Notes: generated by a model not told the origin, from the sequence alone. A DNA stretch of 64,000 nt from Peptoclostridium sp. (GCF_009881055.1 NZ_WXFG01000026.1:1-64000); one strand, 5' to 3'. Positions 3,291 to 58,393 are shown, counted from the stretch's first letter. Numbers and translations are program-made.

Positions 3291-3680
3291 ATGTTTGAGC
3301 TTGATTTGAGAAGCCGCGTCCCGATATACGAGCAGCTTGTGGAGAAGCTAAAGAAGCTTATAATAAGCGACATGTTAAGAGAAAACGAGCAGCTGCCGGC
3401 AGTGAGGACTCTGGCTAAGGAGCTGACTATAAATCCGAACACAATACAAAAGGCTTACAGGGAGCTTGAGCGGCAGGGGTACATATACTCCATTCCAGGC
3501 AAGGGAAGCTTCGTGAGCGAATCTAAAAGCGGGGTGAATATTGAAAAGATGAACGAGCTGAAGGCAGAGCTGGAAAAGATAGTGTCGGAGCTTATATTCA
3601 TGGGAACCGACAAGGGGGAGCTTATAGAGCTCATAGAAAATGTCGGAGATAACGGAAAAAGGGGTGAGGGAGATGATTAG
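3291..3680 (+). CDS. GntR-family transcriptional regulator, YtrA subfamily
   Basis: A 129-residue regulator. Residues 1-75 form the GntR winged helix-turn-helix, with the IYEQLVEKLKKLI start, the LPAVRTLAKEL recognition helix region and the GYIYSIPGKGSFV wing. The short C-terminal helix of about 40 residues, instead of a large ligand domain, is typical of YtrA regulators, which repress the ABC exporter operon they belong to. The gene overlaps the next ATPase start by 8 bases, and a palindromic operator lies over the operon promoter. Confidence 0.9.
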   Translation: MFELDLRSRVPIYEQLVEKLKKLIISDMLRENEQLPAVRTLAKELTINPNTIQKAYRELERQGYIYSIPGKGSFVSESKSGVNIEKMNELKAELEKIVSELIFMGTDKGELIELIENVGDNGKRGEGDD

Positions 3681-4572
3681 GGCTCAAGGCGTTTCGAAAT
3701 CGTACCATGACGTGCTGGCACTCAGCGGCGTCAATCTAGATGTCAGAAGAGGAAGCATATACGGCCTTATAGGCTCTAACGGCGCGGGCAAGACTACTCT
3801 CCTTAAGATACTCTCGGGTATATACAGACAGGACAAGGGCAGATTGGAGATAGACGCCCAGGAGGTGTTCGAAAACGAGGGCCTAAAGCAGAGGGTGATT
3901 TTCATACCGGACAGCCCGTATTTCCTGCCCCAGCACACAATAGACGGCATGGCGGAGTTCTACAGGGGAGTATATGAAAACTTCAGCGACGAGCGCTATG
4001 AGAAGCTTAAGGAAGTTTTCCAGATAGACACGGGCAAGAAGATAGAGTCGCTCTCAAAGGGAATGCAAAGGCAGGTGGCATTCTGGCTGGCGCTTTCCAT
4101 GATGCCGGACCTTCTGGTGCTCGACGAGCCCCTTGACGGGCTGGATCCGGTGGTAAGGCAGAGGGTCAAGAATCTGCTTATACAGGATGTGGCTCAAAGG
4201 GACATGAGTGTAGTCATATCCTCCCACAACCTGAGGGAGCTTGAGGACATATGCGACTCAATTGGCATACTCCACAGGGGTGAGATGGTGGCGCAAAAGG
4301 ATATAGACGACTTCAAGTCGGACGTGCACAAGATACAGGTCGCCTTCAGGGATATGGTAGGGCCGAGGCTCTACGAGGGTATGGACGTGCTCTATCGGGA
4401 AGAGCGTGGGAGTGTCAGCATGCTCATAGTAAAGGGCAGAAAGGCAGAGGTGATTTCGAGATTCAGGGAGCTTCAGCCTGTGATACTCGACATATTGCCT
4501 CTGACTCTCGAGGAGATATTCATATACGAAATGGGGGATATAGGATATGCGATTAAAGACGTCTTTATTTAG
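3673..4572 (+). CDS. ABC transporter ATP-binding protein (YtrB/EcsA-like)
   Basis: A 299-residue ABC-2-type ATPase. The Walker A motif GSNGAGKTT is at residues 34-42, the signature region is SLSKGMQRQ, and Walker B is LLVLDEPLDGLD, followed by the switch His in SSHNL. A C-terminal domain of about 80 residues follows, as in drug or antimicrobial-peptide exporters. I start at ATG 3673, where GGTGAGGGAG lies upstream, rather than the further-upstream ATG 3640. It overlaps gntR upstream and the permease downstream by 26 bases. Substrate unknown; YtrA-linked exporters commonly respond to cell-wall-active compounds. Confidence 0.9.
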   Translation: MIRAQGVSKSYHDVLALSGVNLDVRRGSIYGLIGSNGAGKTTLLKILSGIYRQDKGRLEIDAQEVFENEGLKQRVIFIPDSPYFLPQHTIDGMAEFYRGVYENFSDERYEKLKEVFQIDTGKKIESLSKGMQRQVAFWLALSMMPDLLVLDEPLDGLDPVVRQRVKNLLIQDVAQRDMSVVISSHNLRELEDICDSIGILHRGEMVAQKDIDDFKSDVHKIQVAFRDMVGPRLYEGMDVLYREERGSVSMLIVKGRKAEVISRFRELQPVILDILPLTLEEIFIYEMGDIGYAIKDVFI

Positions 4573-6526
4573 CAGGGCCGTATTCTTAAACGACATTAAA
4601 AGGTTCACCTGGGCCTTCATAGGGTATTTTGTAATGCTCTCCCTTGCAGTGCCTATACAGCTTATAATGAAGGCCGGCTATCTGGAAGAAATCGGGTCCT
4701 TTACAGTAGCTGACAACCCGTTGGCTATGATATTCAGATTCAGGAGTTTTGACATGATGCTCATGGCGGTGGTGCCGATTCTTGCGGGGGTGTTCCTGTT
4801 CAGGTACATGCAGTCAAAACGGAGCGCGGACATGTACCACTCGCTTCCGGTTTGCAGGGATGCTGTGTTCAACTCGAAGCTGGCCGTGGGGGCATTGCTT
4901 TGCTCGCTGCCTGTGGTTGCAACCGGCATAATATGCATGGCCATAAGAAGCTACATAGGGCTGCAGGAGTACTTTACGCTAAATGCTGTGCTCAACTGGA
5001 TGTACATAAGCGTGCTCTTCAACATGACGCTGCTCCTTGCAAGCGTGCTTGTGGGAATGACTACGGGAATATCGGTGATGCAGGGCGCGCTGACGTACAT
5101 ATACCTGTTCCTTCCCATCGGCCTGAGCACGCTCGTTATACTGAACATAGAGCCATTCATGCACGGCTTCAGCGCGGACTACTACATGACGCAGAAAATG
5201 ATGTATTTTTCTCCGCTTGCAAGGATGGCAGAGCTAAGTTCGAAATTCACACTGAAACCAATGGAGATAGGAGGTTATGTAGCGGCGTGCATAGTAATGG
5301 CAGCGGCTGCAGTAATGCTCTACAGGATAAGAAAGACCGAGTCCTACTCCAGGGCGGTTGCGTTTGACGTGTTCGAGCCGGTATTCAAATACGGAGTTAC
5401 GTTCTGTTCCATGCTGCTTGGAGGCACTTTCTTCGGGCAGACGGGCGACAGCATGGGCTGGATGGTGTTCGGCTATGCTGCAGGCTCCGTAATAGGCTAT
5501 GTGGTCGTGCAGATGATACTCAAAAAATCATTCTCAATACTGGATTATAAAACATTTATAGGCTATGTGGGTTTTGTGGCTGCAGCAGTGCTGGTCTTTG
5601 GAGTGCTCAAGCTGGACGTAATGGGATTTGAAAAAAGTATACCGCAGGCAGATGAAGTGGACAGGGTATACATGGGGTACGGCATATATTCGTATATCGA
5701 TGGCTATGATGAAGCGTCTTTTTACACAAGCGCCGAAAACATAAAAAATGTGATAGCAATGCACAAGAAGATGGCGGGTGATGAGCGAGCTTTTGAGAGC
5801 AGGAATTCCGATAAGAACTCAGCGAGAATAAGCATAGCATATGAGCTTGAAGGCGGCAAAAGGCTTGTGAGGGATTACAACGTGCAGCTTGATGAGTACA
5901 GGGATTTTCTAAAGCCTATATACGAGTCCATGGAGTACAAGAGGGCCAACTATGGAATACTCAAGGTGTCTCCGGAGAATGTGGAAAAGATAACGCTAAG
6001 CCCCAATCAAAGCAGCAGGGTAAATGGCGTTTCCATAGTGGACCCGTCGGAGATAAGGGAGTTCATGGAGATTGCAGGAGGGGACATAAAGGACGCTACC
6101 TATGATGAGCTCGAGAATACAAGGGGCTGCACATCAAGCGTAAATATTATGCTGTCTAACAACAAGACTCTTTATTTCACATACAACAAAAGCTTCGACA
6201 AGACCAGAAACTGGCTGGAGCAGAAGGGATACCTCAGGGGAGCGGTCATAATGCCTGAGGACGTAAGCTATATTGTGGTGGAAAAGAGAAGCAACTCCGA
6301 TGCTTACACTATTGAAGACAATGAAGCGAAGGGCGGCAAGGCCATAAAGAGATTCGAAACCAGGGATAAGCAGCAGATAGCCGAGTGCCTTGATACGTTC
6401 GCTGACGGATACAAGAGTGACAATCAGTATATAATAGGGGTGTATACAGAAAGAATAGAGGAAGGATTCTACGGGACTTTCGATGAAGAATCTGTTCCGG
6501 ATTTCGTCCAGAGCTACTTCAAGTAA
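4547..6526 (+). CDS. ABC transporter permease with large C-terminal extracytoplasmic domain
   Basis: A 659-residue membrane protein. About eight hydrophobic segments lie within residues 15-370 in ABC-2 permease style (for example the IGYFVMLSLAVP and MMLMAVVPILAGVFL segments). A soluble C-terminal domain of about 290 residues follows, of the sort found in Clostridia next to YtrA-type regulators. It pairs with the upstream ATPase, whose reading frame it overlaps. It carries all the transmembrane helices of the operon, so the exporter is probably a homodimer of permease plus ATPase. The operon ends in a terminator at 6593. Confidence 0.85.
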   Translation: MRLKTSLFSRAVFLNDIKRFTWAFIGYFVMLSLAVPIQLIMKAGYLEEIGSFTVADNPLAMIFRFRSFDMMLMAVVPILAGVFLFRYMQSKRSADMYHSLPVCRDAVFNSKLAVGALLCSLPVVATGIICMAIRSYIGLQEYFTLNAVLNWMYISVLFNMTLLLASVLVGMTTGISVMQGALTYIYLFLPIGLSTLVILNIEPFMHGFSADYYMTQKMMYFSPLARMAELSSKFTLKPMEIGGYVAACIVMAAAAVMLYRIRKTESYSRAVAFDVFEPVFKYGVTFCSMLLGGTFFGQTGDSMGWMVFGYAAGSVIGYVVVQMILKKSFSILDYKTFIGYVGFVAAAVLVFGVLKLDVMGFEKSIPQADEVDRVYMGYGIYSYIDGYDEASFYTSAENIKNVIAMHKKMAGDERAFESRNSDKNSARISIAYELEGGKRLVRDYNVQLDEYRDFLKPIYESMEYKRANYGILKVSPENVEKITLSPNQSSRVNGVSIVDPSEIREFMEIAGGDIKDATYDELENTRGCTSSVNIMLSNNKTLYFTYNKSFDKTRNWLEQKGYLRGAVIMPEDVSYIVVEKRSNSDAYTIEDNEAKGGKAIKRFETRDKQQIAECLDTFADGYKSDNQYIIGVYTERIEEGFYGTFDEESVPDFVQSYFK

Positions 6527-6592
6527 TAAATAAAATAAGTTTCAGGGGGACAAAGAATCCAAGGTTCGGTTTGCAATGCATACAAAGATTAA

Positions 6593-6633
6593 AAGGCTCT
6601 TGCGGCTAGATTTTAAGTCGCAGGAGCCTTTTT
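6593..6633 (+). terminator. Rho-independent terminator of the GntR-ABC operon
   Basis: AAGGCTCTTGCGGC pairs along about 14 positions with GTCGCAGGAGCCTT, followed by TTTTT. The stem is nearly the same as that of the terminator at 13979, on the other side of the next locus. Confidence 0.9.
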
Positions 6634-6690: not shown

Positions 6691-6719
6691 TTCATATTTT
6701 TATTCATAATAAGTATAAT
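6691..6719 (+). promoter_or_regulatory. Promoter of the importer-methyltransferase locus
   Basis: TTCATA (6691-6696), 17 bases, TATAAT (6714-6719). The -10 is consensus. It leaves a leader of about 35 bases before the first gene. Confidence 0.6.
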
Positions 6720-6761: not shown

Positions 6762-7511
6762 ATGGCGGACAGAAAAAAGCACATATTGGGAGTTGAAAAT
6801 CTGAGCAAATCATTCGGACATGTTAGGGCAATTGAAAATGTGTCCGTTGATTTTTACGCAGGGGAGATTACTGCGATTGTTGGCGACAACGGCGCAGGAA
6901 AGTCCACGCTAATTAAGATGCTCTCGGGAGCCGAAAGGCCTGACAGAGGAAAAATATGCATAAATAAGGTGGAACACAACTTCTTCACGCCATCAGAGGC
7001 TATAGAGAATGGGATAGCGACTGTATATCAGGACCTTGGGCTTGTGAACTGCATGGACATAAGCTCGAATATTTTCCTTGGTCTGGAGCCGCTTAGAAAA
7101 GGCATATTTGTGGACAAGGCCAGGATGAAAAGGGAAAGTCGAGAGCTAATAGAAAAGCTCAGGATTGGAATATCTGACATGGACCTGCTTGCAGGAAACT
7201 TATCCGGGGGCCAAAGGCAGGCTCTTGCCATAGGCAGGGCTATAAAGCAGGGCGGCAGGATACTAATACTTGATGAGCCGACCGCAGCCATGGGGGTTAA
7301 GGAGACACAGCAGGTGATAGAGCTGCTTTTAAACCTTAAAACCCAGGGCTACACAATAATAATAATAACTCACAACATGCAACAGGTTTTTTCGCTGTCC
7401 GACAGGGTTGTTGTGATGAGGCAGGGAAGAGTTGCTGGAGACCTTTCTACAGGGGAGTCCTCGCACAACGAGGTTGTGGGACTAATAACCGGCATGGAAG
7501 GGGTAAGCTGA
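6762..7511 (+). CDS. Sugar-type ABC importer ATPase, single nucleotide-binding domain
   Basis: A 249-residue ATPase of the RbsA/FrcA group. The Walker A motif GDNGAGKST is at residues 41-49, the signature is LSGGQRQ, Walker B is ILILDEPTAAMG and the switch His is in ITHNM. Classic RbsA/MglA proteins are about 500 residues with two such domains; this one has a single complete domain, like the FrcA type, so it would work as a dimer. ATG 6762 follows a modest GAGGTC. The stop is separated from the permease start by a single base, so the two are translationally coupled. Substrate not deducible from sequence. Confidence 0.9.
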   Translation: MADRKKHILGVENLSKSFGHVRAIENVSVDFYAGEITAIVGDNGAGKSTLIKMLSGAERPDRGKICINKVEHNFFTPSEAIENGIATVYQDLGLVNCMDISSNIFLGLEPLRKGIFVDKARMKRESRELIEKLRIGISDMDLLAGNLSGGQRQALAIGRAIKQGGRILILDEPTAAMGVKETQQVIELLLNLKTQGYTIIIITHNMQQVFSLSDRVVVMRQGRVAGDLSTGESSHNEVVGLITGMEGVS

Positions 7512-7512
7512 G

Positions 7513-8478
7513 ATGACTTTGACTGACAAAATAAGAAAAGTGAATATAGAGCCAGGCAGCAGCTTTCACCAGCTGCTTTTGATGGTAGTGCTTGTTGCAG
7601 CCGTGGCTGGTCTTAGCATATCGTCGCCGTTTTTCCTCAAGTGGGACAACATGAGGAATATTCTGGACCAGAGTGTAATAAACATAATAATAGGAGCAGG
7701 CATGACTTATGTGATAAGCAGCGGCGGGATAGACCTTTCCGTAGGGGCGGCAGCTGCTGTATGCGGCGTCATAATTGCCCTGCTGCTAAAGGCGGGACTG
7801 CCCGTATTCCCTGCGGCGGCAGCGGGGCTGCTTGCAGGAGCGCTTCTTGGCGGTGCGAATGGACTCATGGTCTCAAGGCTCAAGGTAAATCCTTTCATAG
7901 TTACTCTGGCCTCCATGTCTGTATTCAGGGGGCTGACGCTGATACTCACAAAGAGCATACCCATATACAGCTTTCCCACTGAATTCACATGGCTTGGAAG
8001 CGGCAGCGTAATAGGCATGCCTGTGCCTGTTATAATTACGCTTGCAGTGGTTGCGCTAGCGTGGACCACGATAAGGAGAACTAGGCTGGGGTATTACACG
8101 ATGGCCATAGGAGGCAACGAGGAGGCCCTTAGGAGAACGGGCGTAAGCGTGGATTATTACAAGACTGCCATATACATGATTTCAGGTTTCACGGCGGCGC
8201 TTGCGGGGCTCATTGTCACAGCCAGGTTAAACAGCGCAGACCCGCTGGCAGGGTATATGTACGAGCTTGACGCCATAGCCACGGTCATACTTGGAGGAAC
8301 GAGCATAAAAGGCGGTCATGGAAGCATGGCGGGCACGGTTATAGCAGGGCTTTTCCTTTCGGTTGTAAGAAACGGCCTTACAATAAACGGAATAGCATCC
8401 TACTGTCAACAGCTTCTAGTTGGGCTGATAATACTCTTTGCGGTTGTGATTTCTGAAAGAAGCGGAAGAAGACTATGA
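7513..8478 (+). CDS. Sugar-type ABC importer permease (RbsC-like)
   Basis: A 321-residue inner-membrane permease with about eight to ten hydrophobic segments and the family features DLSVGAAAAVCGVI near the N-terminus and ATVILGGTSIKGGHGSMAGT near residue 270, characteristic of ribose/xylose/AI-2-type permeases (BPD_transp_2). It forms the channel for the ATPase upstream and the binding lipoprotein at 11741. Its stop overlaps the start of the methyltransferase-like gene (ATGA at 8475-8478), which physically ties transport to that enzyme. Confidence 0.93.
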   Translation: MTLTDKIRKVNIEPGSSFHQLLLMVVLVAAVAGLSISSPFFLKWDNMRNILDQSVINIIIGAGMTYVISSGGIDLSVGAAAAVCGVIIALLLKAGLPVFPAAAAGLLAGALLGGANGLMVSRLKVNPFIVTLASMSVFRGLTLILTKSIPIYSFPTEFTWLGSGSVIGMPVPVIITLAVVALAWTTIRRTRLGYYTMAIGGNEEALRRTGVSVDYYKTAIYMISGFTAALAGLIVTARLNSADPLAGYMYELDAIATVILGGTSIKGGHGSMAGTVIAGLFLSVVRNGLTINGIASYCQQLLVGLIILFAVVISERSGRRL

Positions 8479-9536
8479 AGCTAGAGTGGAACAGAGACGA
8501 GATGACACCGCTGCAAAGAGCAAGTGCCATTTCCAAGGGTATGGCCTATGACAGGCTCCAGGCAAAGCCCTCAATAGGCGAGCAGCCTGCAAGGGTTCTG
8601 GGGATAAGCATAGAGGACTATCTGGGCGATCCAAGGCTAATGGCGCTTGCGCAGACAAAGGGATTCATGCTGTATGGCCAGGACGGCGTGGGAGTTGGTC
8701 CGGACCAGTTTGCATTGCCGGAGGCCATGGGGGCCAGGCTCGTATATTTCCGGAATGATATACCCCAGATGGGAGAGCCGATAATTAAAAATCATGGAGA
8801 TTTAGATATGCTGGAGCCGCCGGACCCGGCAAGGGACGGCAGACTGCCGGTTTTCATCGAGGCGCTTGAAATTATAAGGGATAGGATAGGTCATATTGTG
8901 GGGGTTGGCAGCGGCATAGGAGGACCATTCACAGCGGCTGCATTTTTGAGGGGCACAGGTCAGCTGCTCCGGGACATGAGAAAGAGCCCCGAGCTTGTCC
9001 ACGGCCTGCTTGAGATAACAACTACAGGAGTAATAGCCTACATGGAGGAGTGTTGGAGAAGAGGCTTTGGCTGTGGAATAGGCGAGCCGCTCGCATCAGG
9101 CACTGTGATAAGCGAAAGGGACTTTGTAGAGTTTGTTAAACCCTGTCTTTTTAGAATAGGCGAGTGGAGCAGGAAGAATTACGGCAAGGGTTACTCACTG
9201 CACATATGCGGCGACACGAGGAGAATATGGAATCACATGGCGGATGCAGGGGCATCAAGCATAAGCCTGGACAATATGGTAGACCTTGCGGATGCAAGAG
9301 AAGCCATAGGAAGCAGGGTATCGCTAGGCGGAAACGTACCGCCGGTTGACATCATGCTCCGCGGCGGCAGGGAAGATATATACCAGGCGGTGAAAGACTG
9401 CATATCAAAGGCGGGAGACAATCCCAAAGGGTATGTCGTGGGAACTGGCTGCAGAGTGCCTCTTGGCACGTCGAAGGAAAACGTAATTCATTTCATGGAT
9501 GCGGTAAGGCTGCATGGCAGCTTTAAAAAGGAGTAG
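8475..9536 (+). CDS. Uroporphyrinogen decarboxylase-family protein, MtbA/MtaA-like methyltransferase
   Basis: A 353-residue TIM-barrel protein of the UroD superfamily. It has the zinc-site pattern of the methylcobamide:CoM methyltransferase branch (MtaA/MtbA/CmuA): His243 and Cys245 in LHICGDT and Cys326 in GTGCRVPLGT. True heme-pathway UroD lacks this HxC...C set, so a zinc-dependent methyl or thiol transfer is more likely than decarboxylation. No corrinoid protein is encoded nearby, so the methyl donor and acceptor are unknown. The gene starts inside the stop of the permease and ends 3 bases before the next gene. The proposed role, processing of an imported methylated compound, is inference. 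Confidence 0.8.
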   Translation: MKLEWNRDEMTPLQRASAISKGMAYDRLQAKPSIGEQPARVLGISIEDYLGDPRLMALAQTKGFMLYGQDGVGVGPDQFALPEAMGARLVYFRNDIPQMGEPIIKNHGDLDMLEPPDPARDGRLPVFIEALEIIRDRIGHIVGVGSGIGGPFTAAAFLRGTGQLLRDMRKSPELVHGLLEITTTGVIAYMEECWRRGFGCGIGEPLASGTVISERDFVEFVKPCLFRIGEWSRKNYGKGYSLHICGDTRRIWNHMADAGASSISLDNMVDLADAREAIGSRVSLGGNVPPVDIMLRGGREDIYQAVKDCISKAGDNPKGYVVGTGCRVPLGTSKENVIHFMDAVRLHGSFKKE

Positions 9537-9539
9537 GCT

Positions 9540-10691
9540 ATGGAACAGGACTTGTTTGAATCGTTTAGGGAAATGAAGGAAAAAAATATGATGCTTCTAA
9601 AGGAGGCCAAGGAGAGAGGCCAGAAAGTGGTGGGGCTATACTGCACATACGGCCCCCGGGAGCTTGTGCTGGCTGCGGGAGCCATAGGCGTTGGACTTTG
9701 CGGTACGCGAGAGGAGCCAATAGCAGATGCTGAAAAGCACCTGCCGAGAAACCTGTGCCCGCTTATCAAATCCTCCTATGGCTATGCCGTGACAGACGCA
9801 TGTCCGTACTTTTACTTTTCGGATATGGTCATAGGTGAAACAACTTGTGACGGCAAAAAGAAGATGTTCGAACTGATGAAGGAATTCAAGAAGGTTCATG
9901 TGATGAATATGCCCCAGAATCAGGAATCGCAGTCTTCTCTTGAGCTGATGTACGCAGAGATGAAACGCCTGAAGGTCGCACTTGAAGAGTATCTTGAAAC
10001 GAGCATAAGCGACGAAGATTTAAGAAGGGCAATACACACTGTAAACGAGGAAAAGAAGGCTCTAAAGAGGCTCTATGACCTCAACAGGGCAAAGCCGGCG
10101 TTTATATCGGGAATGGAGCTGCTGAGGGTATCCTGGCAGATAGGCTTTCACAGCGACAGAGAGGAGCGCGTCAGGCTAATACACAAGCTCTGCGGCGATA
10201 TTCTATCGGAGGCGGCAAAAGGAAAGCACGCTGTATCCGAAGATGCGCCGAGGATACTCCTTACCGGAACTCCCGTAGGCATTGGCAGTGAAAAGGTGGT
10301 TGCAATAGTCGAAGAAAGCGGAGGGACTGTAGTCAACATGGAAAGCTGCGGCGGCTACAAGACACTTGGTTTTTACATTGACGAGAATGACACTAGGGAT
10401 CCGCTGCTCCTTCTGGCTGAGAAATATCTAAAGATACCATGCTCCATAATGTCACCAAACGATGGGCGCTTGGAGCTAATCAAGGAAATAGTCAAGGAAT
10501 TCAGCATAGACGGCATAATAGACCTTACGTGGCAGGGCTGCCACACGTACAACATAGAATCGAATCATGTGGCAAGGCTTGCTAAAGATAAGCTGGGCTT
10601 ACCTTTTTTACACCTGGAGACGGACTATTCACAAAATGATGCAGAGATGCTGAGGGTACGCATAGGCGCATTCCTTGAAATGATGGGTTAG
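9540..10691 (+). CDS. Double-cubane-cluster protein (YjiM/DCCP family, 2-hydroxyacyl-CoA dehydratase-related reductase)
   Basis: A 383-residue protein of the HgdB/BcrC superfamily. Length and cysteine layout match YjiM/DCCP: Cys35 (YCTYGP), Cys73 (NLCP), Cys88 (DACPY), Cys103 (TTCDGKKK), then ESCGGYK and WQGCHTYN in the C-terminal half. DCCPs carry a bridged [Fe8S9]-type double cubane and perform very low-potential, ATP-driven reductions when electrons come from a dedicated ATPase activator (YjiL/HgdC type). No such activator is encoded in this window. Only one subunit is present, unlike true dehydratases with two. It lies 3 bases after the methyltransferase-like gene, so the pair is probably one functional unit. 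Substrate unknown. Confidence 0.85.
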   Translation: MEQDLFESFREMKEKNMMLLKEAKERGQKVVGLYCTYGPRELVLAAGAIGVGLCGTREEPIADAEKHLPRNLCPLIKSSYGYAVTDACPYFYFSDMVIGETTCDGKKKMFELMKEFKKVHVMNMPQNQESQSSLELMYAEMKRLKVALEEYLETSISDEDLRRAIHTVNEEKKALKRLYDLNRAKPAFISGMELLRVSWQIGFHSDREERVRLIHKLCGDILSEAAKGKHAVSEDAPRILLTGTPVGIGSEKVVAIVEESGGTVVNMESCGGYKTLGFYIDENDTRDPLLLLAEKYLKIPCSIMSPNDGRLELIKEIVKEFSIDGIIDLTWQGCHTYNIESNHVARLAKDKLGLPFLHLETDYSQNDAEMLRVRIGAFLEMMG

Positions 10692-10723
10692 CTATACATT
10701 CAAAAGAGAAAGAGGGGGTTTTC

Positions 10724-11662
10724 ATGAGTGTTGAGATATTAGGTCTTGGTGCGTCGGCCATGGATATAGTAATGCAGTGCGAGAATCTGCCAAAGGAGGA
10801 TGGTTTTTCATTCATACACTGTGAAAAGCTTATGCCGGGTGGAAGCTGCGCAAATGTTCTCGTAACGCTAAGCAACATGGATATCAGAACGTCACTTGTG
10901 GCACAGCTTGGCGATGACCACTACGGAGGGCTTTTTCTCGAAGACATAAAGCTCAGCGGAGTGGAGACTGAGTACGTTAAAGTAAAGCAGGGCGGTGAAT
11001 CGCTGCATACATTTATAACGGTAGATAAAAAAGGAGATAAGGCCATATATTGCAATTTGGGCGACAGCCTGCTGGAGCTTGGGGCGGACGATGTGGGCAG
11101 TGAAATGCTAAAAGGCATAAAACTTTTCTACACTGATATGTTCCCTGTAAAGCCGGCTATAAAGCTGGCAAGGCTGTGCAAGGAGGAGGGCATCCCAGTA
11201 GCAGTCAACCTGCAGTGTGCGCCTTCTTTCATGTCATTATGCAATGCAAGCAGTCAGGAGCTTGAGGAGATGTTCTCTCTGGCAGACGTGATATTTGCAT
11301 GCAGGGAGGGCCTTTTGGAGCTGGCAGGGAGCGATGACTACCTCAGCGCCGGAAACAGCATATACGATAAGTACAGGCCAAAGTACGGGTTGGTATTTAC
11401 TTTAGGAGAAAATGGAGCGCTTGTTTTTGGAGAGGAAGGATTAGCTGAGATTCCAGCAATTGATATTGAGGCGGTAGATACTACAGGCGCCGGGGACTCT
11501 TTCATAGGAGGCTTCATATATGCGTTTTTTATTAGCAAAATGACTGCTGCAGATTCGGCAAGATTTGCAAACGCCTGCGCAGCAATAAAGTGCACACAGC
11601 GAGGACCAAGGCTAAAGGCTTCAAAAGAGGACATACTTGAAGTGTTAAGCAGGGAAGCTTAA
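10724..11662 (+). CDS. PfkB-family carbohydrate/nucleoside kinase
   Basis: A 312-residue ribokinase-fold kinase. The N-terminal GLGASAMDIV strand, the PGGSCANV glycine pair near residue 38 and the C-terminal signature DTTGAGDSF near residue 252, including the catalytic Asp, are all present. It transfers phosphate from ATP to a hydroxymethyl group of a sugar or nucleoside; the exact substrate cannot be read from sequence. AGGGGG precedes the ATG. Inside this locus it would phosphorylate the imported compound or a product of it. Confidence 0.9.
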   Translation: MSVEILGLGASAMDIVMQCENLPKEDGFSFIHCEKLMPGGSCANVLVTLSNMDIRTSLVAQLGDDHYGGLFLEDIKLSGVETEYVKVKQGGESLHTFITVDKKGDKAIYCNLGDSLLELGADDVGSEMLKGIKLFYTDMFPVKPAIKLARLCKEEGIPVAVNLQCAPSFMSLCNASSQELEEMFSLADVIFACREGLLELAGSDDYLSAGNSIYDKYRPKYGLVFTLGENGALVFGEEGLAEIPAIDIEAVDTTGAGDSFIGGFIYAFFISKMTAADSARFANACAAIKCTQRGPRLKASKEDILEVLSREA

Positions 11663-11670
11663 ATTTGTTA

Positions 11671-11707
11671 TGCATTGATTAATGCAAGTGAGCTGTTCCT
11701 GTATAAT
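11671..11707 (+). promoter_or_regulatory. Inverted repeat and -10 box ahead of the binding-protein gene
   Basis: TGCATT-GATT-AATGCA (11671-11686) is a perfect inverted repeat, and TATAAT lies at 11702-11707. The best-spaced -35 (TTAATG, 11679-11684, 17-base spacer) is weak and overlaps the repeat, so this may be an internal promoter controlled by a regulator bound to the repeat. It would allow extra expression of the binding protein relative to the enzymes. Confidence 0.4.
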
Positions 11708-11740
11708 AAAAAATCAAACTACATTAGGAGGCTTTAATCG

Positions 11741-12814
11741 ATGAAAAATGCAAAAAGACTAATCGCAGCTTTTTTGGCAGCAACAATGATGTTTTCGATG
11801 GCAGGCTGCTCAGCAAAGCAGGAAGCAAAGACAGCCGAACCAAAGAGTACTACGCAGGAGACACAAAAGAATTCTGCTTTTGCAGATGCGGAAAAGAAGC
11901 TTGAGGAAGCTCTAGCTCCACTGCCTGCAAAAGACAGCAAGGCAAAGCTTGCGGCTTTGGAGATAACTCTTGCAAATCCTTTCTGGGTGACAATGAAAGA
12001 AGGATACGAGTCTGCAGCAGCTGAATATGGAGTTACAATAGATGTGCTTGCAGCTCCGAAGGAAGACGACGTGAACTCTCAGCTTGAAACGCTGAAAACG
12101 CTACTTAGCAAAGATTACAACGCAATAGCTATATCGGCTATAACTCCATTCAACCTTGTTCCTGGAGTAGCTGAGGCGACAAAAAAAGGAATACCTGTGG
12201 TAGCGGTAGGAACATCTGTAGATGCAGAGGAAGCCAAAAAAGTAAACGCAAAGATAGAAGCCTTCATAACATCCGACTTTGAAGAGCAGGGCAAGATGGG
12301 CGCTGAATTCATAGCAGAAAAGATAGGCTCTGGAAAGGTTGCAATAATCGAAGGGCTTCCTGGAGCTGCTCAAGGTGAAGCTAGAAAGAGCGGCGCGCAA
12401 AAGGGCTTTGAAGGCAAGGACGGCATAGAAGTGGTTTCGGTTCAGCCAGGCAACTGGGACCGCAAAACTGCATACGATATAACTACGAACCTGCTTCAGG
12501 CCAACCCTGATTTGAAGGGAATATTCTGTGCAAATGACATGATGGCCCTTGGCGCTGTTGAAGCTCTTAAGGCTGCGAACAAGAAAGACCAGGTCGTTGT
12601 GGTAGGCGTTGACTTCATAGAAGAGGCGAAGGCTTCGATAGCAAAGGGCGAACTTGACGCAACAGTTGCTATGTCGCCATATCTTTTCGGTAAGGGCGGT
12701 TTGATAATTGCGCTTAAGGTTCTGGAGGGGCAGACGATAGACAAGGACATCTACTGGACTCCGCTTGGACTTGTAACAAAGGACAATGTTGACAGCTTCG
12801 AAGGCTGGAAATAG
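11741..12814 (+). CDS. Sugar-type ABC importer substrate-binding lipoprotein (RbsB-like)
   Basis: A 357-residue lipoprotein. A short signal peptide ends in the lipobox MAGC with lipidated Cys23, followed by a low-complexity linker to about residue 65. A periplasmic-binding-protein type I fold follows (ALEITLANPFWVTMKEGYES start, the GVDFIEEAKASIAKGELDAT region near the C-terminus). It captures the ligand outside the membrane for the RbsA/RbsC-like pair. AGGAGG precedes the ATG. Its position at the far end of the locus, after the enzymes and with its own possible promoter, is unusual for rbs-type operons. Confidence 0.93.
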   Translation: MKNAKRLIAAFLAATMMFSMAGCSAKQEAKTAEPKSTTQETQKNSAFADAEKKLEEALAPLPAKDSKAKLAALEITLANPFWVTMKEGYESAAAEYGVTIDVLAAPKEDDVNSQLETLKTLLSKDYNAIAISAITPFNLVPGVAEATKKGIPVVAVGTSVDAEEAKKVNAKIEAFITSDFEEQGKMGAEFIAEKIGSGKVAIIEGLPGAAQGEARKSGAQKGFEGKDGIEVVSVQPGNWDRKTAYDITTNLLQANPDLKGIFCANDMMALGAVEALKAANKKDQVVVVGVDFIEEAKASIAKGELDATVAMSPYLFGKGGLIIALKVLEGQTIDKDIYWTPLGLVTKDNVDSFEGWK

Positions 12815-12824
12815 AAAACTTTCA

Positions 12825-12862
12825 GGGCAGCATTCACATAGGGTGCTGCTCGATTTATTTTT
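12825..12862 (+). terminator. Terminator or attenuator between binding protein and alcohol dehydrogenase
   Basis: GCAGCA (12827-12832) and TGCTGC (12844-12849) form a short hairpin followed by CGATTTATTTTT. The stem is modest, so partial read-through into the dehydrogenase gene is likely. Confidence 0.55.
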
Positions 12863-12877
12863 AAGGAGCTGAGTGAT

Positions 12878-13978
12878 TTGAAGACGTGGAACATAAAAAC
12901 TCCCAGGCTTGTCTACAGTGGACTGGGCTCGGTTTCAAAGCTAAAGGATATAATGGAGGCTAATTCGGCTAAAAGCGCATTTGTAGTGCTTGACAGAGGG
13001 CTCGAAGGAACTTGTTTTGAGACAAAGCTCAAGCTAGCCTTGGAAGGATATGAAACGACTTGCTGGGACGGTTTTTCAACAAATCCGAGCGTTATCCAGT
13101 GTGAGGATGGCGTAGAATGCTTCAGAAGAAACAAAGGGGACATAGTTATAGCGGCCGGAGGAGGAAGCGCAATAGATGCTGCAAAATACATCCTCATGAA
13201 CAGTGGTTTTCAGACTTTCGTGGCAATACCAACTACATGTGGAACCGGCGCGGAATGCAGCCCATTTGCGATAATAAAGGAAACTGAGCCTTTGAGGAAA
13301 GCGGCAATATCACATGAGAGGTTCATACCAGAATACGTAATACTAGATCCGCAGTCGCTGGTGTCGCTGAGCAGGGAGATGATAGCTGCTACTGCAATGG
13401 ACACGCTGGCTCACGGAATAGAGGTGCACATATCAAAAAATGCAGATTCCCTTGTCAGGATAAGCACAAGGGGGAGTCTTGATACCATTTTCAGACACAT
13501 GGAAAGAGCCGTGTTCGACAGGGATATGGAATCTCTTGAAGCGCTTCAGAATGTGGCGTTTACGGCAAGACTACTTTATCCAAGGACGGGGCTTTCAATA
13601 GCACATAGTCTGGCCCACCCTCTTGGAGCAATCACGGACTGGCACCACGGCATTATAATAGCTCTCTTGCTGCCCCAGACGCTGATTTTCAACAAAGGGT
13701 ACTGCCAGGAGTTTCTTGGAGAGATAAATGGAATATTATCGCTAAATGACGGGCGCAAAACCGATATAATAGAGTGGATAGAAGACATTGCCCATAGATC
13801 GGAGATGTTCAAGCATCTAAATGCATCAGGATATCCATTAGAAGAGCTGGCAATAGACAGGATAGCAAAGGAAGCAATGAAAAGCAGTAACATTGCATCA
13901 AACCCGAGGGAGATAAGCTCATCCGAGGAATTGAAAGAAGTTCTAGTTGAATCTCTAAAGAAGATAAAAGTTAGGTGA
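12878..13978 (+). CDS. Iron-containing alcohol dehydrogenase family protein
   Basis: A 366-residue group III (iron-type) dehydrogenase. The nucleotide-binding GGGSAIDAAK is near residue 94, TTCGTGAECSPFAII follows, and the metal-binding Asp/His set is in the AMDTLAHGIEVH and SIAHSLAHPLGA segments plus DWHHG. These enzymes interconvert small alcohols and aldehydes with NAD(P)H. The start is TTG 12878, supported by AAGGAG at 12863-12868. It is at the end of the importer-kinase locus and ahead of a strong terminator, so it probably handles a short aldehyde or alcohol from the pathway; the substrate is unknown. Confidence 0.9.
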   Translation: MKTWNIKTPRLVYSGLGSVSKLKDIMEANSAKSAFVVLDRGLEGTCFETKLKLALEGYETTCWDGFSTNPSVIQCEDGVECFRRNKGDIVIAAGGGSAIDAAKYILMNSGFQTFVAIPTTCGTGAECSPFAIIKETEPLRKAAISHERFIPEYVILDPQSLVSLSREMIAATAMDTLAHGIEVHISKNADSLVRISTRGSLDTIFRHMERAVFDRDMESLEALQNVAFTARLLYPRTGLSIAHSLAHPLGAITDWHHGIIIALLLPQTLIFNKGYCQEFLGEINGILSLNDGRKTDIIEWIEDIAHRSEMFKHLNASGYPLEELAIDRIAKEAMKSSNIASNPREISSSEELKEVLVESLKKIKVR

Positions 13979-14018
13979 TGGCTCTTGTGGCAGGCAGTTT
14001 AGGTCGCAGGAGCTTTTT
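13979..14018 (+). terminator. Terminator closing the importer-methyltransferase locus
   Basis: GGCTCTTGTGGC pairs with GTCGCAGGAGCT, followed by TTTTAAA. The stem sequence is nearly identical to that of the terminator at 6593 before the locus. Confidence 0.85.
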
Positions 14019-14168: not shown

Positions 14169-14531
14169 ATGAAGATTGAAAGCTCTGTAGTAAGCACCAA
14201 CACGCTGTCTCAAAGAAGCGAGATATCGCATTCAGAAAAGATGTCGTCCGAAAAGGCAGATATGGTAAAGCAGGCTCTAGGCAAGGAAGATCAGGCGTCA
14301 TTTCCGGGAGAAAGAAAGCTCATAGAGGCCATAGAAAAGGCTAATCCCGAACTTGCCGGACAGAACACAAGCATAAGATTTTCAGTGCATGAGAAGACAA
14401 AACAGATAATGATAAAGATAATGGATAATTCGACAGACGAGGTCATAAAAGAAATCCCTTCGGAAAAGATACTCGACATGGTGGCCGACATGATGGAAAA
14501 GGCAGGTCTTTTCGTAGACAAGAGGGGCTAG
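14169..14531 (+). CDS. flaG: FlaG flagellar protein
   Basis: A 120-residue canonical FlaG. A charged, unstructured N-terminal half is followed by the domain IRFSVHEKTKQIMIKIMDNS, TDEVIKEIPSEKIL and a terminal helix. FlaG proteins affect filament length and are normally encoded next to fliD. It is first in an operon with a consensus sigma-28 promoter and is 21 bases ahead of fliD. Confidence 0.93.
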   Translation: MKIESSVVSTNTLSQRSEISHSEKMSSEKADMVKQALGKEDQASFPGERKLIEAIEKANPELAGQNTSIRFSVHEKTKQIMIKIMDNSTDEVIKEIPSEKILDMVADMMEKAGLFVDKRG

Positions 14532-14552
14532 AATTAATATAGGGGTGATAAA

Positions 14553-16205
14553 ATGTCGACAATAAGGTTCGGCGGTATGGCATCGGGGCTTGACACGGAG
14601 AGCATGGTTAAGGAGCTAATGAAGGCCGAAAGGGCCAAGGTTGACAAGCTCCAGCAGAGCAAGCAGACAAAGACATGGGTGCAGGAAGCCTACAACGATA
14701 TGAACAAGAGCTTCGCCAACTTCATACTGGATTCGAAAAAGGCGCTCGGCATCACAAGGACAAGCTCCACAGGCTCCACGTTTTCAACATCCTACAGCAG
14801 CTTCACATGGGTGAAAAGCGCATCGTCCTCAAATGAAAGCACATTTACAGCGACAGCTACCACTTCTGCGGTATCGGGAACTCATAGCATTAAAGTAGAG
14901 AAGCTTGCAGAGGGAGTCAACAAGGCAAGTATTAAGGATATCGCTGCCAGGAATGTCGAATTGGGAGGCGCTCTTACCGATGTCACTTCGACTACCAAGC
15001 TTTCAGAGCTTGGAGCAGGTGGTTCGGTAAACATAAAGACCACATCAGGAGAAGTGAATATTTCTATTACAGCTGATAAAACAATAGCTGACATAGTAAA
15101 TGAAATCAATTCAGGGAATTTAGGCATAAAAGCAACGTTCGACGATACATCCAACAGGTTTTTTATTTCCACAACATCAATGGGGAGCAACGCCAAGATA
15201 AACATTACCGAGACAATAGATTCAGGTAAAAAAAGAGTTTTCGCTGAATCAGCAGAGGGCGCAGAAGATAGCATATTCGCAACTGATTTAGCAGCCGGAG
15301 TTGATATTACCGGCCAGGACGCTGAAATAGAATTTGACGGGGCGGCGGGAATAAAATATTCCTCAAACCAGTTTACAATAAACGGCATTACGATAGACCT
15401 CAAAGCGGCTCAGCCGGGAGTCACAAACACCATAAAGGTCGACACAAACACAGACGGCATAGTCGAGAAGGTCAAAGCCTTCGTTGACTCGTACAACACA
15501 CTCATAGACAGCGTAAACACAAAGCTCGGCGAAAAAAAGTACAGGGACTACCAGCCGCTCACTGACGAGCAGAAGGAAGCCATGGACGAGGACACAATAA
15601 AGCTTTGGGAGGAGAAGGCCAAGTCAGGGCTTCTGAGAAACGACTCGACCCTGCAGAGGACTCTGGAAACCATAAGATCAAGCCTCTACGAAAAAGTCGA
15701 AGGTGTCTCGGGCTCGTTTTCTTCAATGTTTGAGATAGGCATAACTACAGGTTCCTACACAGACAAGGGCAAGCTGGAGATAGACGAGACAAAGCTCAGG
15801 GAAAAGATAATGCAGGATCCTGAAGGTGTGATGGAGCTGCTCTTCAAGACCTCAAGCTCGACTGATGAGGATACCAAAAAGGCAGAAACAGGAATAATCA
15901 ACAGAATATACGACAACATGGTTGAGGGCATGAAGGACGTAATAGACAAGGCCGGAGCGGGCGACAACGCCAGCCTCTACAGGAAAGTCCAGTCCAACAT
16001 AATGATAGAATTCGTAGTGAAGGGCTCAAAGAGCCTGATAGATGAAGACCTTCTCAGCATAGCCAAAAGGATAGACACAGAAAACGACAGGCTATCGGAC
16101 GTAGAGGACAGATACTGGAAGCGATTCACCGCACTTGAAAAGGCAATGCAGCAGATGAACTCACAAAGCAGCTGGCTGTCACAGCAGCTTGGGGGAGGAC
16201 AATAA
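14553..16205 (+). CDS. fliD: Flagellar filament cap protein FliD (HAP2)
   Basis: A 550-residue capping protein. The N-terminal domain begins MSTIRFGGMASGLDTESMVK, a hallmark of FliD, followed by the KTWVQEAYNDMNK coiled-coil part. A Thr/Ser-rich central region of beta-rich D2/D3 type covers about residues 75-290. The C-terminal domain (NTLIDSVN, LQRTLETIRSSL, GSYTDKGKLEIDETKL) ends in a coiled coil. The cap sits at the filament tip and helps flagellin monomers fold into place. GGGGTGAT precedes the ATG. Confidence 0.97.
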   Translation: MSTIRFGGMASGLDTESMVKELMKAERAKVDKLQQSKQTKTWVQEAYNDMNKSFANFILDSKKALGITRTSSTGSTFSTSYSSFTWVKSASSSNESTFTATATTSAVSGTHSIKVEKLAEGVNKASIKDIAARNVELGGALTDVTSTTKLSELGAGGSVNIKTTSGEVNISITADKTIADIVNEINSGNLGIKATFDDTSNRFFISTTSMGSNAKINITETIDSGKKRVFAESAEGAEDSIFATDLAAGVDITGQDAEIEFDGAAGIKYSSNQFTINGITIDLKAAQPGVTNTIKVDTNTDGIVEKVKAFVDSYNTLIDSVNTKLGEKKYRDYQPLTDEQKEAMDEDTIKLWEEKAKSGLLRNDSTLQRTLETIRSSLYEKVEGVSGSFSSMFEIGITTGSYTDKGKLEIDETKLREKIMQDPEGVMELLFKTSSSTDEDTKKAETGIINRIYDNMVEGMKDVIDKAGAGDNASLYRKVQSNIMIEFVVKGSKSLIDEDLLSIAKRIDTENDRLSDVEDRYWKRFTALEKAMQQMNSQSSWLSQQLGGGQ

Positions 16206-16206
16206 C

Positions 16207-16240
16207 GGTGCCAGGCACGAACTAATGAACATATAAGGGG
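16207..16240 (+). repeat. Flagellar-region intergenic repeat, copy 4
   Basis: Core GTGCCAGGCACGAACTAATG followed by AACATATAAGG. It lies between fliD and fliS and aligns with the copies at 2032, 2155 and 2756; the core has an internal GTGCC/GGCAC palindrome. Confidence 0.5.
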
Positions 16241-16250
16241 TGTTAACTGT

Positions 16251-16634
16251 ATGGCAATGACAAATCCATATGCGAAATATCAGGAGCAGTCGGTATTCAC
16301 CGCAACTCCGGAAGAACTGACACTTATGCTCTATGACGGCTGCATAAAATTCATAAACAGAGCAGCAATAGGCATAGAAGACAAGAACATAGAAATGACA
16401 AACACAAACATAATAAAAGCTCAAAACATAGTAAGAGAGCTCAATATAACACTCAACATGGACTACGAGGTTTCAAAGGGCCTAAGGCCGCTTTACGACT
16501 ACATGCATACAAGGCTCATAGACGCAAACATAAAAAAAGACTCACAGGCGCTGGAAGAAGTAAAAGAACTCATAACAGACATGAGAGATACGTGGAAAGA
16601 AGCCATAAAACTCGCCAGAATGAACTCGAGGTAA
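16251..16634 (+). CDS. fliS: Flagellin export chaperone FliS
   Basis: A 127-residue helical protein with the FliS features NPYAKYQEQSVFTATPEELTL near the N-terminus and LMLYDGCIKFI, then the DYEVSKGLRPLYDYM segment. It binds the C-terminal helices of flagellin in the cytoplasm and prevents early polymerisation before export. AAGGGGTG precedes the ATG. It stands between fliD and a FliT-like gene, the usual order. Confidence 0.96.
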   Translation: MAMTNPYAKYQEQSVFTATPEELTLMLYDGCIKFINRAAIGIEDKNIEMTNTNIIKAQNIVRELNITLNMDYEVSKGLRPLYDYMHTRLIDANIKKDSQALEEVKELITDMRDTWKEAIKLARMNSR

Positions 16635-16638
16635 TAAT

Positions 16639-17130
16639 ATGAGAATAGAAAGCATAATAGGAAGACTAATAGAGCTGCTCGACAAAAAAGCAGTGCTCAT
16701 GGAAATGCTCTACTGGATGACACTAGAGCAAAAAAGCTTCCTGAAAACCGAAAGCATAGACTCATTCATGAACGAGATGAAAAAAAGGCAGCTCGCCATG
16801 GACGAAATAGACCAGATAGACTCGGAATTCTACAGACTATACATAGAAGTCAAGGAAATGATGGGCATAGCCTCACTCGAGCATGCGGACACAAAAAAAT
16901 ATCCGCAGCTTGCATCGCTCCACCAAAAAGTCCAGGCTGTTATGGAAATAACACAGAAAATACAGGAACTAGACGAGCAGAACAAAAGCGAAGTCAGCGA
17001 AAAATTCGAGCAGGTCAAAGAAGACATGAAAAAACTCCAGGCTCAAAAAAGCGCAGCCAGCAAAATATCAAAGGGTTACGCCTCTAAATACAACCACGCC
17101 CAGGGAGTATTCATAGACAATAAAAAATAA
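16639..17130 (+). CDS. FliT-like flagellar chaperone
   Basis: A 163-residue, strongly charged, all-helical protein with long coiled-coil stretches. It has no recognisable enzyme motif. Position directly after fliS (4 bases) and size suggest the export chaperone FliT or a FlgN-like equivalent, which would hold FliD before export. The name rests on context more than on sequence. The operon ends in a terminator at 17149. Confidence 0.6.
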   Translation: MRIESIIGRLIELLDKKAVLMEMLYWMTLEQKSFLKTESIDSFMNEMKKRQLAMDEIDQIDSEFYRLYIEVKEMMGIASLEHADTKKYPQLASLHQKVQAVMEITQKIQELDEQNKSEVSEKFEQVKEDMKKLQAQKSAASKISKGYASKYNHAQGVFIDNKK

Positions 17131-17982: not shown

Positions 17983-18092
17983 CTTGGTTATAAACTCGAG
18001 AACCAGCTGTCGATTTCTATCAAGTTTACATCCGCCTGCCGGGGGTAACAATATTCAATAAGTGAAAACATTGCATGTTTGGGGGGGTTCGA

Positions 18093-18419
18093 ATGGAGGA
18101 CATAGAGATACTAAGACGGATACTCGACATAGATTCTCTAAGCAGGGCACTGGATGAAAAGACAAGAAAGCTTGCGGAGGATAATGACGCAGACATCAAA
18201 AAAGAGCTGGTGACCATGGAAACGCAAATGATTGAAGCGGCAAGGCAGGAAGGAAGGGCAAGCATGCAGTTCCTGATAGACGAAGGAAATAAGGAAGCCG
18301 AGAAGATAAAAAGCCGCTATGAGAGCAGGCTGACGGAGCTGGACGAGAAGTTTCAAAAGAGAAAAGACGGCATGGAAAACAAGCTTTTCTTCGAGATATT
18401 TCTAAAAGGGGATGTTTAG
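18093..18419 (+). CDS. ntpH: V-type ATP synthase peripheral stalk subunit H/G
   Basis: A 108-residue, highly charged single long helix, the form of the archaeal/bacterial V-type stalk subunit (AhaH/NtpF/VatH), which dimerises with subunit E to make the peripheral stator. Recognition rests on composition and position at the head of the operon. I start at ATG 18093, which follows a run of seven G; an in-frame start at 18075 would lie before that site. The stop directly abuts the next start. Confidence 0.7.
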   Translation: MEDIEILRRILDIDSLSRALDEKTRKLAEDNDADIKKELVTMETQMIEAARQEGRASMQFLIDEGNKEAEKIKSRYESRLTELDEKFQKRKDGMENKLFFEIFLKGDV

Positions 18420-19457
18420 ATGTCGAGCGTTCAAAAATATGCGGCTGTAAACGCGAAGGTCCGGGCGCTCAAAGCGAGGCTGCTAAGGGACGAGGACTAT
18501 AAAAATATGCTGGCAATGGGAAATGAGGTCGAGATAGTAAGGTATCTCAAGGAAAAGACCGCATACAACCATGTGCTAAAGGACATAGACCCGGACAACT
18601 ACAACAGGCAGGACTTCGAGTTTTGCCTCAGGAAGGCCATACTCGACGACTATGAAAAGATAATCCACTTCCTTACAGGAGAGAGCAAGCAGGTGCTCAA
18701 GGTGCTCACGATGGTCAGATACGAGGTGGAGGACCTCAAGCTAATACTAAGGTCGATAAGCCGCGGCGAGGATCCGGGAGAGATAACAAATCGCTTTCTC
18801 CGCAAGGAGAGTTTCACGGGCGTAAACAGGGAAGAGCTTGTAAAGGCCAGGACCATAGAGGATTTCGTGGAGCGGCTAAAGGGCACAATATATTATAGGC
18901 CGCTCAAGACGCTTACGCAGGAGGACATGGAAAAGAGGCAGTTCCATATGGAGATGAACATAGACAACGCCTATTTTGAGCTCCTCTTCAAGCACATAGA
19001 AAAGCTCGATCCGGAGGATAGGGAGCTCATGCTAATGCAGGTGGGCACTAACGTAGACCTTCAGAACATTCACTTCATATACAGGGCACTTACATTCTAC
19101 AAGCTCACGGGCGTCGAGATATTCAACTACGCTTTGCCATTTGGATATTACCTCAAGGGTAAGACGCTCAAAAGGATATGCTTTAGTGGGACCCCCGAGA
19201 ATTTCATGGCTGAAATGAGAAGCACCAGTTACTGGTCGCTGCTCGAGAGGGGCGTAAGTGACATATTCATGGAAAGGGCGATGTCACAGGCGCTCTACGA
19301 CAACTACCAGACAGTCGGAAGTATGAACATAACCCAGATAATAGAGTACTACCACAGGATAGAGTTCGAGATGAGGGATATAATTTCTATCACGGAGGCT
19401 GTAGGGTACGGCATGGAATATAATGATGCCAGGAAATACCTCATAAGAAGGATATAA
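18420..19457 (+). CDS. ntpC: V-type ATP synthase subunit C (d)
   Basis: A 345-residue helical protein of the AC39/subunit d family, with a start of KYAAVNAKVRALKARLL and the family's RYEVEDLKLILR stretch. It forms the funnel-shaped socket joining the central shaft to the membrane ring. Its place here, ahead of subunit I, differs from the common I-K-E-C-F-A-B-D order. Confidence 0.93.
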   Translation: MSSVQKYAAVNAKVRALKARLLRDEDYKNMLAMGNEVEIVRYLKEKTAYNHVLKDIDPDNYNRQDFEFCLRKAILDDYEKIIHFLTGESKQVLKVLTMVRYEVEDLKLILRSISRGEDPGEITNRFLRKESFTGVNREELVKARTIEDFVERLKGTIYYRPLKTLTQEDMEKRQFHMEMNIDNAYFELLFKHIEKLDPEDRELMLMQVGTNVDLQNIHFIYRALTFYKLTGVEIFNYALPFGYYLKGKTLKRICFSGTPENFMAEMRSTSYWSLLERGVSDIFMERAMSQALYDNYQTVGSMNITQIIEYYHRIEFEMRDIISITEAVGYGMEYNDARKYLIRRI

Positions 19458-19471
19458 GGGGGTGATAGCGA

Positions 19472-21433: not shown

Positions 21434-21472
21434 GCCGTAAATAAGCCATATAAAAAATTGGAGGGATAACAT

Positions 21473-21898: not shown

Positions 21899-21919
21899 CA
21901 CTTAGTTTGGAGGGACTGT

Positions 21920-22228: not shown

Positions 22229-22244
22229 CATTGGGGTGATGAGC

Positions 22245-24720: not shown

Positions 24721-24736
24721 GAGGGATACTAATACC

Positions 24737-57130: not shown

Positions 57131-57309
57131 GTACTTTCATGGATTTGAATTTTGTTTTGATTTGAATTGTTTTGATTTTTTTATGGTGAATATAGTTTCT
57201 GATAAAATGCTTATAATCAATTTTTTATATAAGAACAATAAAACTAAATATCTTTAGAACCAAATCAAAAAAACAAAAAATTCAAAAAACTTATGAAAGG
57301 AGGTTGAAC

Positions 57310-57996: not shown

Positions 57997-58054
57997 GCTG
58001 CAGGCGCAGGATGTGCTTTTGCAATAGTTTGCAACTTGTATGAGTTTTTTATAA

Positions 58055-58393
<339 letters not shown>

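Follow-up and report, generated by a model that had tools for sequence, protein, structure and literature searches.

A gene cluster of Peptoclostridium, recurrent in other anaerobes, uniting a sugar-type importer, a PfkB kinase, a UroD-fold zinc protein and a double-cubane-cluster protein

Introduction

Double-cubane-cluster proteins (DCCPs), which are widespread among anaerobes, contain an unusual cluster of nitrogenase-like type, and to our knowledge no physiological substrate is known for any of them, including the enzyme of solved structure (6eno, 7yyl). Here, we analyzed a DCCP gene within a seven-gene locus at positions 6762–13978 of a 64,000-nucleotide stretch of DNA (the window) from Peptoclostridium sp. 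(GCF_009881055.1, NZ_WXFG01000026.1:1–64000), where it is accompanied by genes for an ATP-binding cassette (ABC) importer, a PfkB-family kinase, a zinc protein of the UroD fold and an iron-containing alcohol dehydrogenase (Fe-ADH). With slightly less than even confidence, we read this locus as a cluster, spread by horizontal transfer, for the anaerobic uptake and breakdown of a ribose-type, nucleoside-like glycoside, the aglycone of which would be handled by the zinc UroD protein together with the DCCP.

The nearest published relative is the type 1 mlp cluster of Kountz and Balskus (2023, PMC10418091), the definition of which calls for two or more Mlps together with a corrinoid protein and Ram/RACE at distances of up to 2 kb. 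In the same work, DCCP genes are reported as frequent neighbors of such clusters, and the His-Cys-Cys zinc set of UroD proteins is tied to sulfur or selenium substrates (PMC10418091). A preliminary description of the locus, made from its sequence, stated that no described pathway with this set was known to its author. That statement stood for the full set, no description of which was found in full-text literature searches combining the marker genes, limited to open-licence papers; it did not stand for the link between DCCPs and methyl-S/Se methyltransferase clusters, which is already published (PMC10418091), so that this part is not wholly new. The MtaA/CmuA soluble methyltransferases, the PsuK–PsuG route of pseudouridine catabolism and the AlsBAC/RbsBAC importers of Escherichia coli also resemble parts of the locus and are compared below.

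Results

The gene set recurs across families

The seven open reading frames (ORFs), all on the plus strand, encode in order an ABC ATPase, a permease, the UroD-fold zinc protein, the DCCP, the PfkB kinase, a sugar-binding lipoprotein and Fe-ADH. Their coordinates, single direction and the gaps of at most three bases separating the first four genes, as given in the preliminary description, were borne out by the ORFs and by Pfam and NCBIfam domains. Scanning the genome collection with a UroD alignment recovered homologous loci, whereas a single UroD sequence as query recovered none. So that loci were not chosen by their UroD, whole genomes were also searched with the PfkB kinase alone (orthologue, E below 1e-60), and an orthologue was present in 10 of the 398 genomes sampled across the phylum, the host included. 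The set is therefore not confined to this strain, a restriction that the preliminary description had named as refuting its reading: Candidatus Formimonas warabiya (L076) carries all seven genes in an order identical to that of the window, with identities of 55% (UroD), 68% (DCCP), 59% (PfkB), 74% (binding protein) and 44% (Fe-ADH).

Pooling both routes gave 14 other loci, all from anaerobic bacteria, in which neighbors were counted within 9 kb of the kinase; five of them were found through the UroD and are not independent for UroD presence. The permease was present in all 14, the ATPase and the binding protein in 13 each, and the UroD and a full-length DCCP in 11 each; among the nine kinase-selected loci, UroD and full-length DCCP each occurred in six. 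Many loci also had a PsuG-like lyase (9/14), and half had a corrinoid protein (7/14); further neighbors were DUF436 (six loci), DUF362 (four), QueG-like (three), DCCP reductase (three) and ADP-ribosylglycohydrolase-like genes (at least three). Fe-ADH is an accessory part of the cluster because only two of the other loci, L076 and L214, contain it. As the gene set recurs across families, it is not a chance grouping, and its recurrence around the kinase in 14 other loci upholds the earlier view of one conserved catabolic or salvage locus in which importer and enzymes belong together. The orthologous cluster was not found in 98 other relatives, nor in the class sample, and horizontal transfer is therefore the simplest reading of its acquisition.

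Several copies have features of their own. In Desulfosporosinus BRH_c37 (L077, 8409–14407), the importer, kinase and binding-protein ORFs are shortened, through either decay or assembly errors; near them lie a gene for a TudS-related desulfidase and DCCP, UroD and corrinoid genes that are intact. Beyond the seven genes, Formimonas has at 14557–18612 genes for a corrinoid protein, an additional UroD and a molybdopterin oxidoreductase, which the window does not share; in L074, a UroD cluster is likewise followed by a related molybdopterin gene.

The DCCP and its reductase

The window DCCP passes the curated NCBIfam model NF040772 (508.4 bits, cut-off 350) and matches the solved DCCP with 286 bits over 361 residues. 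Cys 35, 54, 73, 88, 103, 270, 301 and 334 are kept in all full-length cluster DCCPs, and seven of them visibly align with the solved enzyme, which supports the earlier proposal of a strongly reducing step. The core group of cluster DCCPs is 62–68% identical to that of the window, compared to 36–49% for the paralogues of the host itself. The difference from the solved system is that the reductase gene lies outside the locus: the host encodes one close DCCP-type reductase (ASKHA), on contig C31. A gene of this cognate type would serve the ATP-dependent reduction that, with an [8Fe-9S] cluster, characterizes DCCPs. On C31 (L053, 8616–11030), the reductase gene shares a cassette with genes for a DCCP paralogue and a small DUF3343-like protein. 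A link between DUF3343 and selenium use has been reported (PMC5322559).

A distinct clade of UroD-fold zinc proteins

The putative zinc ligands of the UroD protein (H243, C245 and C326; HxC...C) are present, and the His-Cys-Cys set is kept in 13 of 13 aligned cluster homologues. The best PDB match of its predicted structure (pLDDT 90) was the Methanosarcina mazei methyltransferase 4ay7 (TM scores 0.85/0.88), with uroporphyrinogen decarboxylases next. Its scores fall under the curated cut-offs for MtbA (87 bits, cut-off 600) and MtaA/CmuA (TIGR01463, 156 bits, cut-off 235.4). Of the earlier label ‘MtbA-like zinc enzyme’, the zinc residues were thus retained and the name MtbA was rejected on its score. 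MtaA and CmuA share the UroD fold and the His-Cys-Cys set with the window protein; the differences are its score and the lack of a methyl-corrinoid protein partner in the host.

In a maximum-likelihood tree, the window UroD paired with that of Formimonas (support 100/98) on a branch of no unusual length, and nine cluster UroDs, including that of the window, formed an exclusive clade (support 100/99). A second set of cluster UroDs (L223, L090 and L094, with L077 nearby) was placed elsewhere, and the mlp UroDs of the host's family sat in a separate part of the tree. Some of the neighbor ORFs taken as outgroup were wrong picks (corrinoid and RACE sequences on very long branches); these lie outside the clade discussed, and the deep branches are unusable. 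In this tree, which was built without reference Mlp sequences, the window UroD falls near the mlp-type UroDs but in a separate clade.

Compared to type 1 mlp clusters, in particular the Mlp2/SdmC-like branch, the likeness lies in the His-Cys-Cys UroD, 39–44% identical to mlp-type UroDs found in the host's family and in other clostridia, and in the DCCP. The best UroD homologues in the host's family (42–45% identity) stand in another setting, that of UroD, corrinoid protein, second UroD and RACE, which is the type 1 layout. The locus falls outside that definition, as it has one UroD and neither a corrinoid protein nor RACE; these two are also missing from the window and from the host genome. 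It adds instead the importer and kinase, and neither PfkB nor ABC transporters are mentioned in the main text of PMC10418091. The possibility that the host carries no more than its family's mlp cluster was rejected, as the window UroD groups with Formimonas and not with Peptostreptococcaceae mlp UroDs.

This likeness bears on a narrower form of our reading, sulfur or selenium salvage, in which the imported compound would be a sugar or nucleoside with a methylthio or methylseleno group (a selenosugar, for instance, or a methylthiolated tRNA nucleoside). After its phosphorylation and cleavage, the UroD would demethylate the methyl-S/Se part, the DCCP would reduce the chalcogen and selenide would enter selenoprotein synthesis. 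The UroD appears closest to the Mlp2-like group, one member of which methylates selenide in vitro while another is needed for dimethyl-selenide use (PMC10418091), and selenium loci repeatedly contain DCCP genes (PMC10418091; PMC5322559). The host has selA, selB and selD, together on contig C10, and the L077 copy has its TudS-related desulfidase. However, none of the loci examined has a selenium gene inside the cluster, the corrinoid protein of known Mlp2 systems is missing from the host, and a PsuG-like lyase and a ribose pocket are not specific to either element. We consider this form unlikely.

Importer, kinase and lyase point to a ribosyl compound

The ATPase, permease and Peripla_BP_4 lipoprotein together constitute a CUT2 importer of the ribose/allose type, with all three below equivalog cut-offs. 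The best NCBIfam matches of the ATPase are halves of YtfR, AraG and RbsA, the permease scores 259 bits on the ribose permease model (cut-off 398), and the binding protein is closest to the D-allose-binding protein 1gub (AlsB, 217 bits). Using the list of ribose contacts of ribose-binding protein (RBP) from PMC2630998, we found N13, F15, aromatic 16, R141, aromatic 164, N190 and D215 to be kept, while Q235 is replaced by Met. When the protein is aligned pairwise with the allose protein, Gly-Thr takes the place of the D89–R90 pair, and a multiple alignment shifts the pair to a nearby Asp. The residues suggest a ligand with a sugar ring and a pocket altered at one end. Compared to E. coli AlsBAC/RbsBAC, the window importer thus belongs to the same family and keeps most ribose contacts, but has a single-domain ATPase and has lost the Q235 and D89–R90 equivalents. 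Because the binding protein is 65–74% identical to its orthologues in most cluster loci, one ligand is probably common to most of them.

The solved structures nearest to the kinase are YihV sulfofructose kinase and ribokinase rather than pseudouridine kinase, and its score on the PsuK model NF007355 (35.4 bits) is far under the cut-off of 540. In 9 of the 14 relatives, a PfkB kinase and a PF04227 (PsuG-like) lyase stand side by side as in the PsuK–PsuG system. These lyases keep D149 and K166 of E. coli PsuG, the latter being the ring-opening lysine, and E31 in all but two, which have Asp; they diverge at K93, H137 and N289. Kinase and adjoining lyase point to a ribosyl compound that would be phosphorylated and then split at C1. 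The window differs in that its host has no PF04227 protein. The lyases and the retained ribose-pocket residues favor the nucleoside-like half of the substrate proposed earlier, ‘polyol or nucleoside-like’; the polyol half found no support. Elsewhere, Tissierella has a PsuG-like gene (PF04227; L102, 3570–4346) within a few kilobases of an mlp-type cluster, where no PfkB orthologue was seen. The importer–kinase cluster of L219, L220, L221 and L222 is bordered by one or two ADP-ribosylglycohydrolase-like genes, and their substrate may be an alpha-ribosyl compound.

A sugar-type importer and an Fe-ADH, which carries the D/H/H/H metal-ligand motif, would also suit an anaerobic salvage of 5-methylthioribose resembling the dihydroxyacetone phosphate shunt: import, phosphorylation, splitting to a methylthio-aldehyde, reduction by Fe-ADH and C–S cleavage by the DCCP in place of nitrogenase-like MarHDK. 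A connection of Mlp clusters with methionine salvage and MarHDK has been drawn (PMC10418091). Against such a route, no MtnA isomerase or aldolase was recognized in the cluster loci by eye or among the families searched, the PsuG-like lyase presupposes a 5-OH that is free to be phosphorylated, and Fe-ADH is rare in the other loci. The kinase is moreover of the PfkB type, not of the known MtnK family. We regard this route as very improbable.

Missing parts in the host

The host genome is 99.7% complete and was searched throughout for PF02607, PF02310, PF14574, PF04227, PF01869, PF01208 and PF06050. No PF02607 methyl-carrier corrinoid protein, no RACE corrinoid activator and no PF04227 homologue was found in the whole genome; a PsuG encoded elsewhere in the host was thereby rejected, and PF02310 occurred only inside ORFs of 446–622 aa. 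In the approximately 80% of the genome searched for them, cobT, cobS, cobU and btuR had no match, and one BtuC-like permease was present. As neither a carrier corrinoid protein nor an activator is encoded genome wide, corrinoid methyl transfer of the standard kind drawn in the preliminary description cannot run in this host with known parts; the lack of both and the sub-cut-off MtaA/CmuA score weaken the earlier idea of methyl transfer between corrinoid and thiol. In the host, the UroD must act without a corrinoid protein, or with free or imported corrinoid. In most relatives, it probably does partner a corrinoid protein, and methyl transfer is suggested for the seven loci that have one.

A zinc protein that acts directly on a thiol, selenol or alkyl group, paired with the DCCP, would reconcile these absences with the intact zinc ligands and the ordinary branch length of the window UroD. 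MetE and epoxyalkane:coenzyme M transferase are cobalamin-independent members of the superfamily. Nevertheless, half of the other loci have a corrinoid protein within 9 kb, the fold is matched best by the M. mazei enzyme, which depends on corrinoid, and only remotely by MetE, and free cobalamin could stand in. A corrinoid-free UroD of this kind seems unlikely to us.

Discussion

For the ribose-type glycoside that we favor, we infer the ligand class, the order of steps and their chemistry from the gene set, its conservation, the UroD clade, motifs and folds. The lipoprotein would bind the sugar ring of the compound, which the ABC importer would then carry inward, and the PfkB kinase would phosphorylate the sugar. 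The sugar–aglycone bond would then be opened, by the PsuG-like lyase in most relatives and by some other enzyme in this host. On the aglycone, the zinc UroD would act on a soft group (a thiol, a selenol or their methyl ether), and the DCCP would carry out a low-potential reduction, powered by the ATP-dependent reductase whose gene lies on another contig. Fe-ADH, where present, would probably reduce an aldehyde product as an optional step.

Several observations weigh against this pathway. L219 has no UroD near the kinase, and L216 and L220 have distantly related UroDs only. Full-length DCCP is missing from L217, L221 and L222, L217 having a 157-aa fragment that is probably a frameshift. Neither protein is therefore indispensable to the cluster, as each is absent from some kinase loci. 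In the host, the missing PsuG homologue, corrinoid carrier and RACE leave the cleavage and aglycone steps incomplete, and the hairpin ahead of Fe-ADH speaks against its strict co-transcription. The ribose/allose-type pocket, judged by its residues, could equally accept a free sugar.

The absence of UroD or DCCP from some loci, the constancy of importer and kinase above all other parts and the nearness of the binding protein to the D-allose-binding protein would fit an ordinary ribose/allose-type sugar operon in which UroD and DCCP ride along as redox passengers without a role in sugar use. Against this, most loci, across different families, have UroD and/or DCCP placed amid the transporter and kinase genes, with spacings of 1–4 nt in the window, the core cluster DCCPs are far closer to the window's than are the host paralogues, and the cluster UroDs form one clade. 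An ordinary sugar operon is in our view improbable.

A bolder version of the glycoside pathway, which we hold to be rather unlikely, is a new anaerobic pathway in which the ribosyl compound is opened and UroD and DCCP, in this host without protein-bound corrinoid, dismantle a methylated S/Se-containing or otherwise reduction-resistant aglycone. If true, such a pathway would supply the first physiological substrate for a DCCP. The cluster links one DCCP lineage to a specific importer, kinase and methyltransferase-like zinc protein; the ligand of the binding protein could thus reveal the substrate of the DCCP. A host that keeps the UroD without known corrinoid methyl-carrier machinery also offers a direct test of the corrinoid need of this branch.

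Locus layout and genomic setting

Features of the locus are collected in Table 1. Terminator-like hairpins enclose the seven-gene set on either side. The ATPase and permease genes are 1 nt apart, the permease and UroD genes overlap by 4 nt, and 3 nt separate UroD from DCCP. Wider intervals follow between DCCP and PfkB (32 nt), PfkB and the binding protein (78 nt) and the binding protein and Fe-ADH (63 nt), the last with a strong terminator-like hairpin. From the hairpins before the locus, after it and before Fe-ADH, the first six genes are likely one transcription unit, and Fe-ADH may be reached by partial read-through only. No riboswitch or other known RNA in the locus was matched in Rfam, even at an E of 1.

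Table 1 Features of the locus, with positions in the window
Feature	Position	Strand	Remarks
Terminator-like hairpin upstream of locus	6591..6632	+	17 pairs, T run at end; RNA fold −27.7 kcal/mol, z −5.9
Promoter-like TTCATA-N17-TATAAT	6691..6719	+	42 nt before first ATG; 10/12 consensus match only
Single-domain ABC ATPase (CUT2 sugar type)	6762..7511	+	PF00005 (ABC_tran), 107 bits
ABC permease, ribose/allose type	7513..8478	+	PF02653 (BPD_transp_2), 148 bits
UroD-fold zinc protein, SCMT/Mlp2-like	8475..9536	+	PF01208 (URO-D), 221 bits
DCCP	9540..10691	+	NF040772, 508 bits; HGD-D, 382 bits
PfkB-family kinase, ribokinase-like	10724..11662	+	PF00294, 140 bits
Sugar-binding lipoprotein, D-allose/ribose-binding family	11741..12814	+	Peripla_BP_4, 200 bits; 217 bits to 1gub
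Terminator-like hairpin, binding protein/Fe-ADH interval	12825..12851	+	11 pairs, z −5.8
Fe-ADH, TTG start	12878..13978	+	PF00465, 117 bits
Terminator-like hairpin at locus end, then T run	13980..14014	+	12 pairs; RNA fold −17.5 kcal/mol, z −3.7

Together with a neighboring GntR/ABC cassette (3291–6526), the locus splits a flagellar region as if inserted, with flagellin and FlaG at 523–2730 on one side and FlaG, FliD and FliS at 14169–17130 on the other. The same window also holds, as judged from ORF translations, both a V-type ATPase operon (18075–26122) and an F-type ATP synthase operon (57304–63584).

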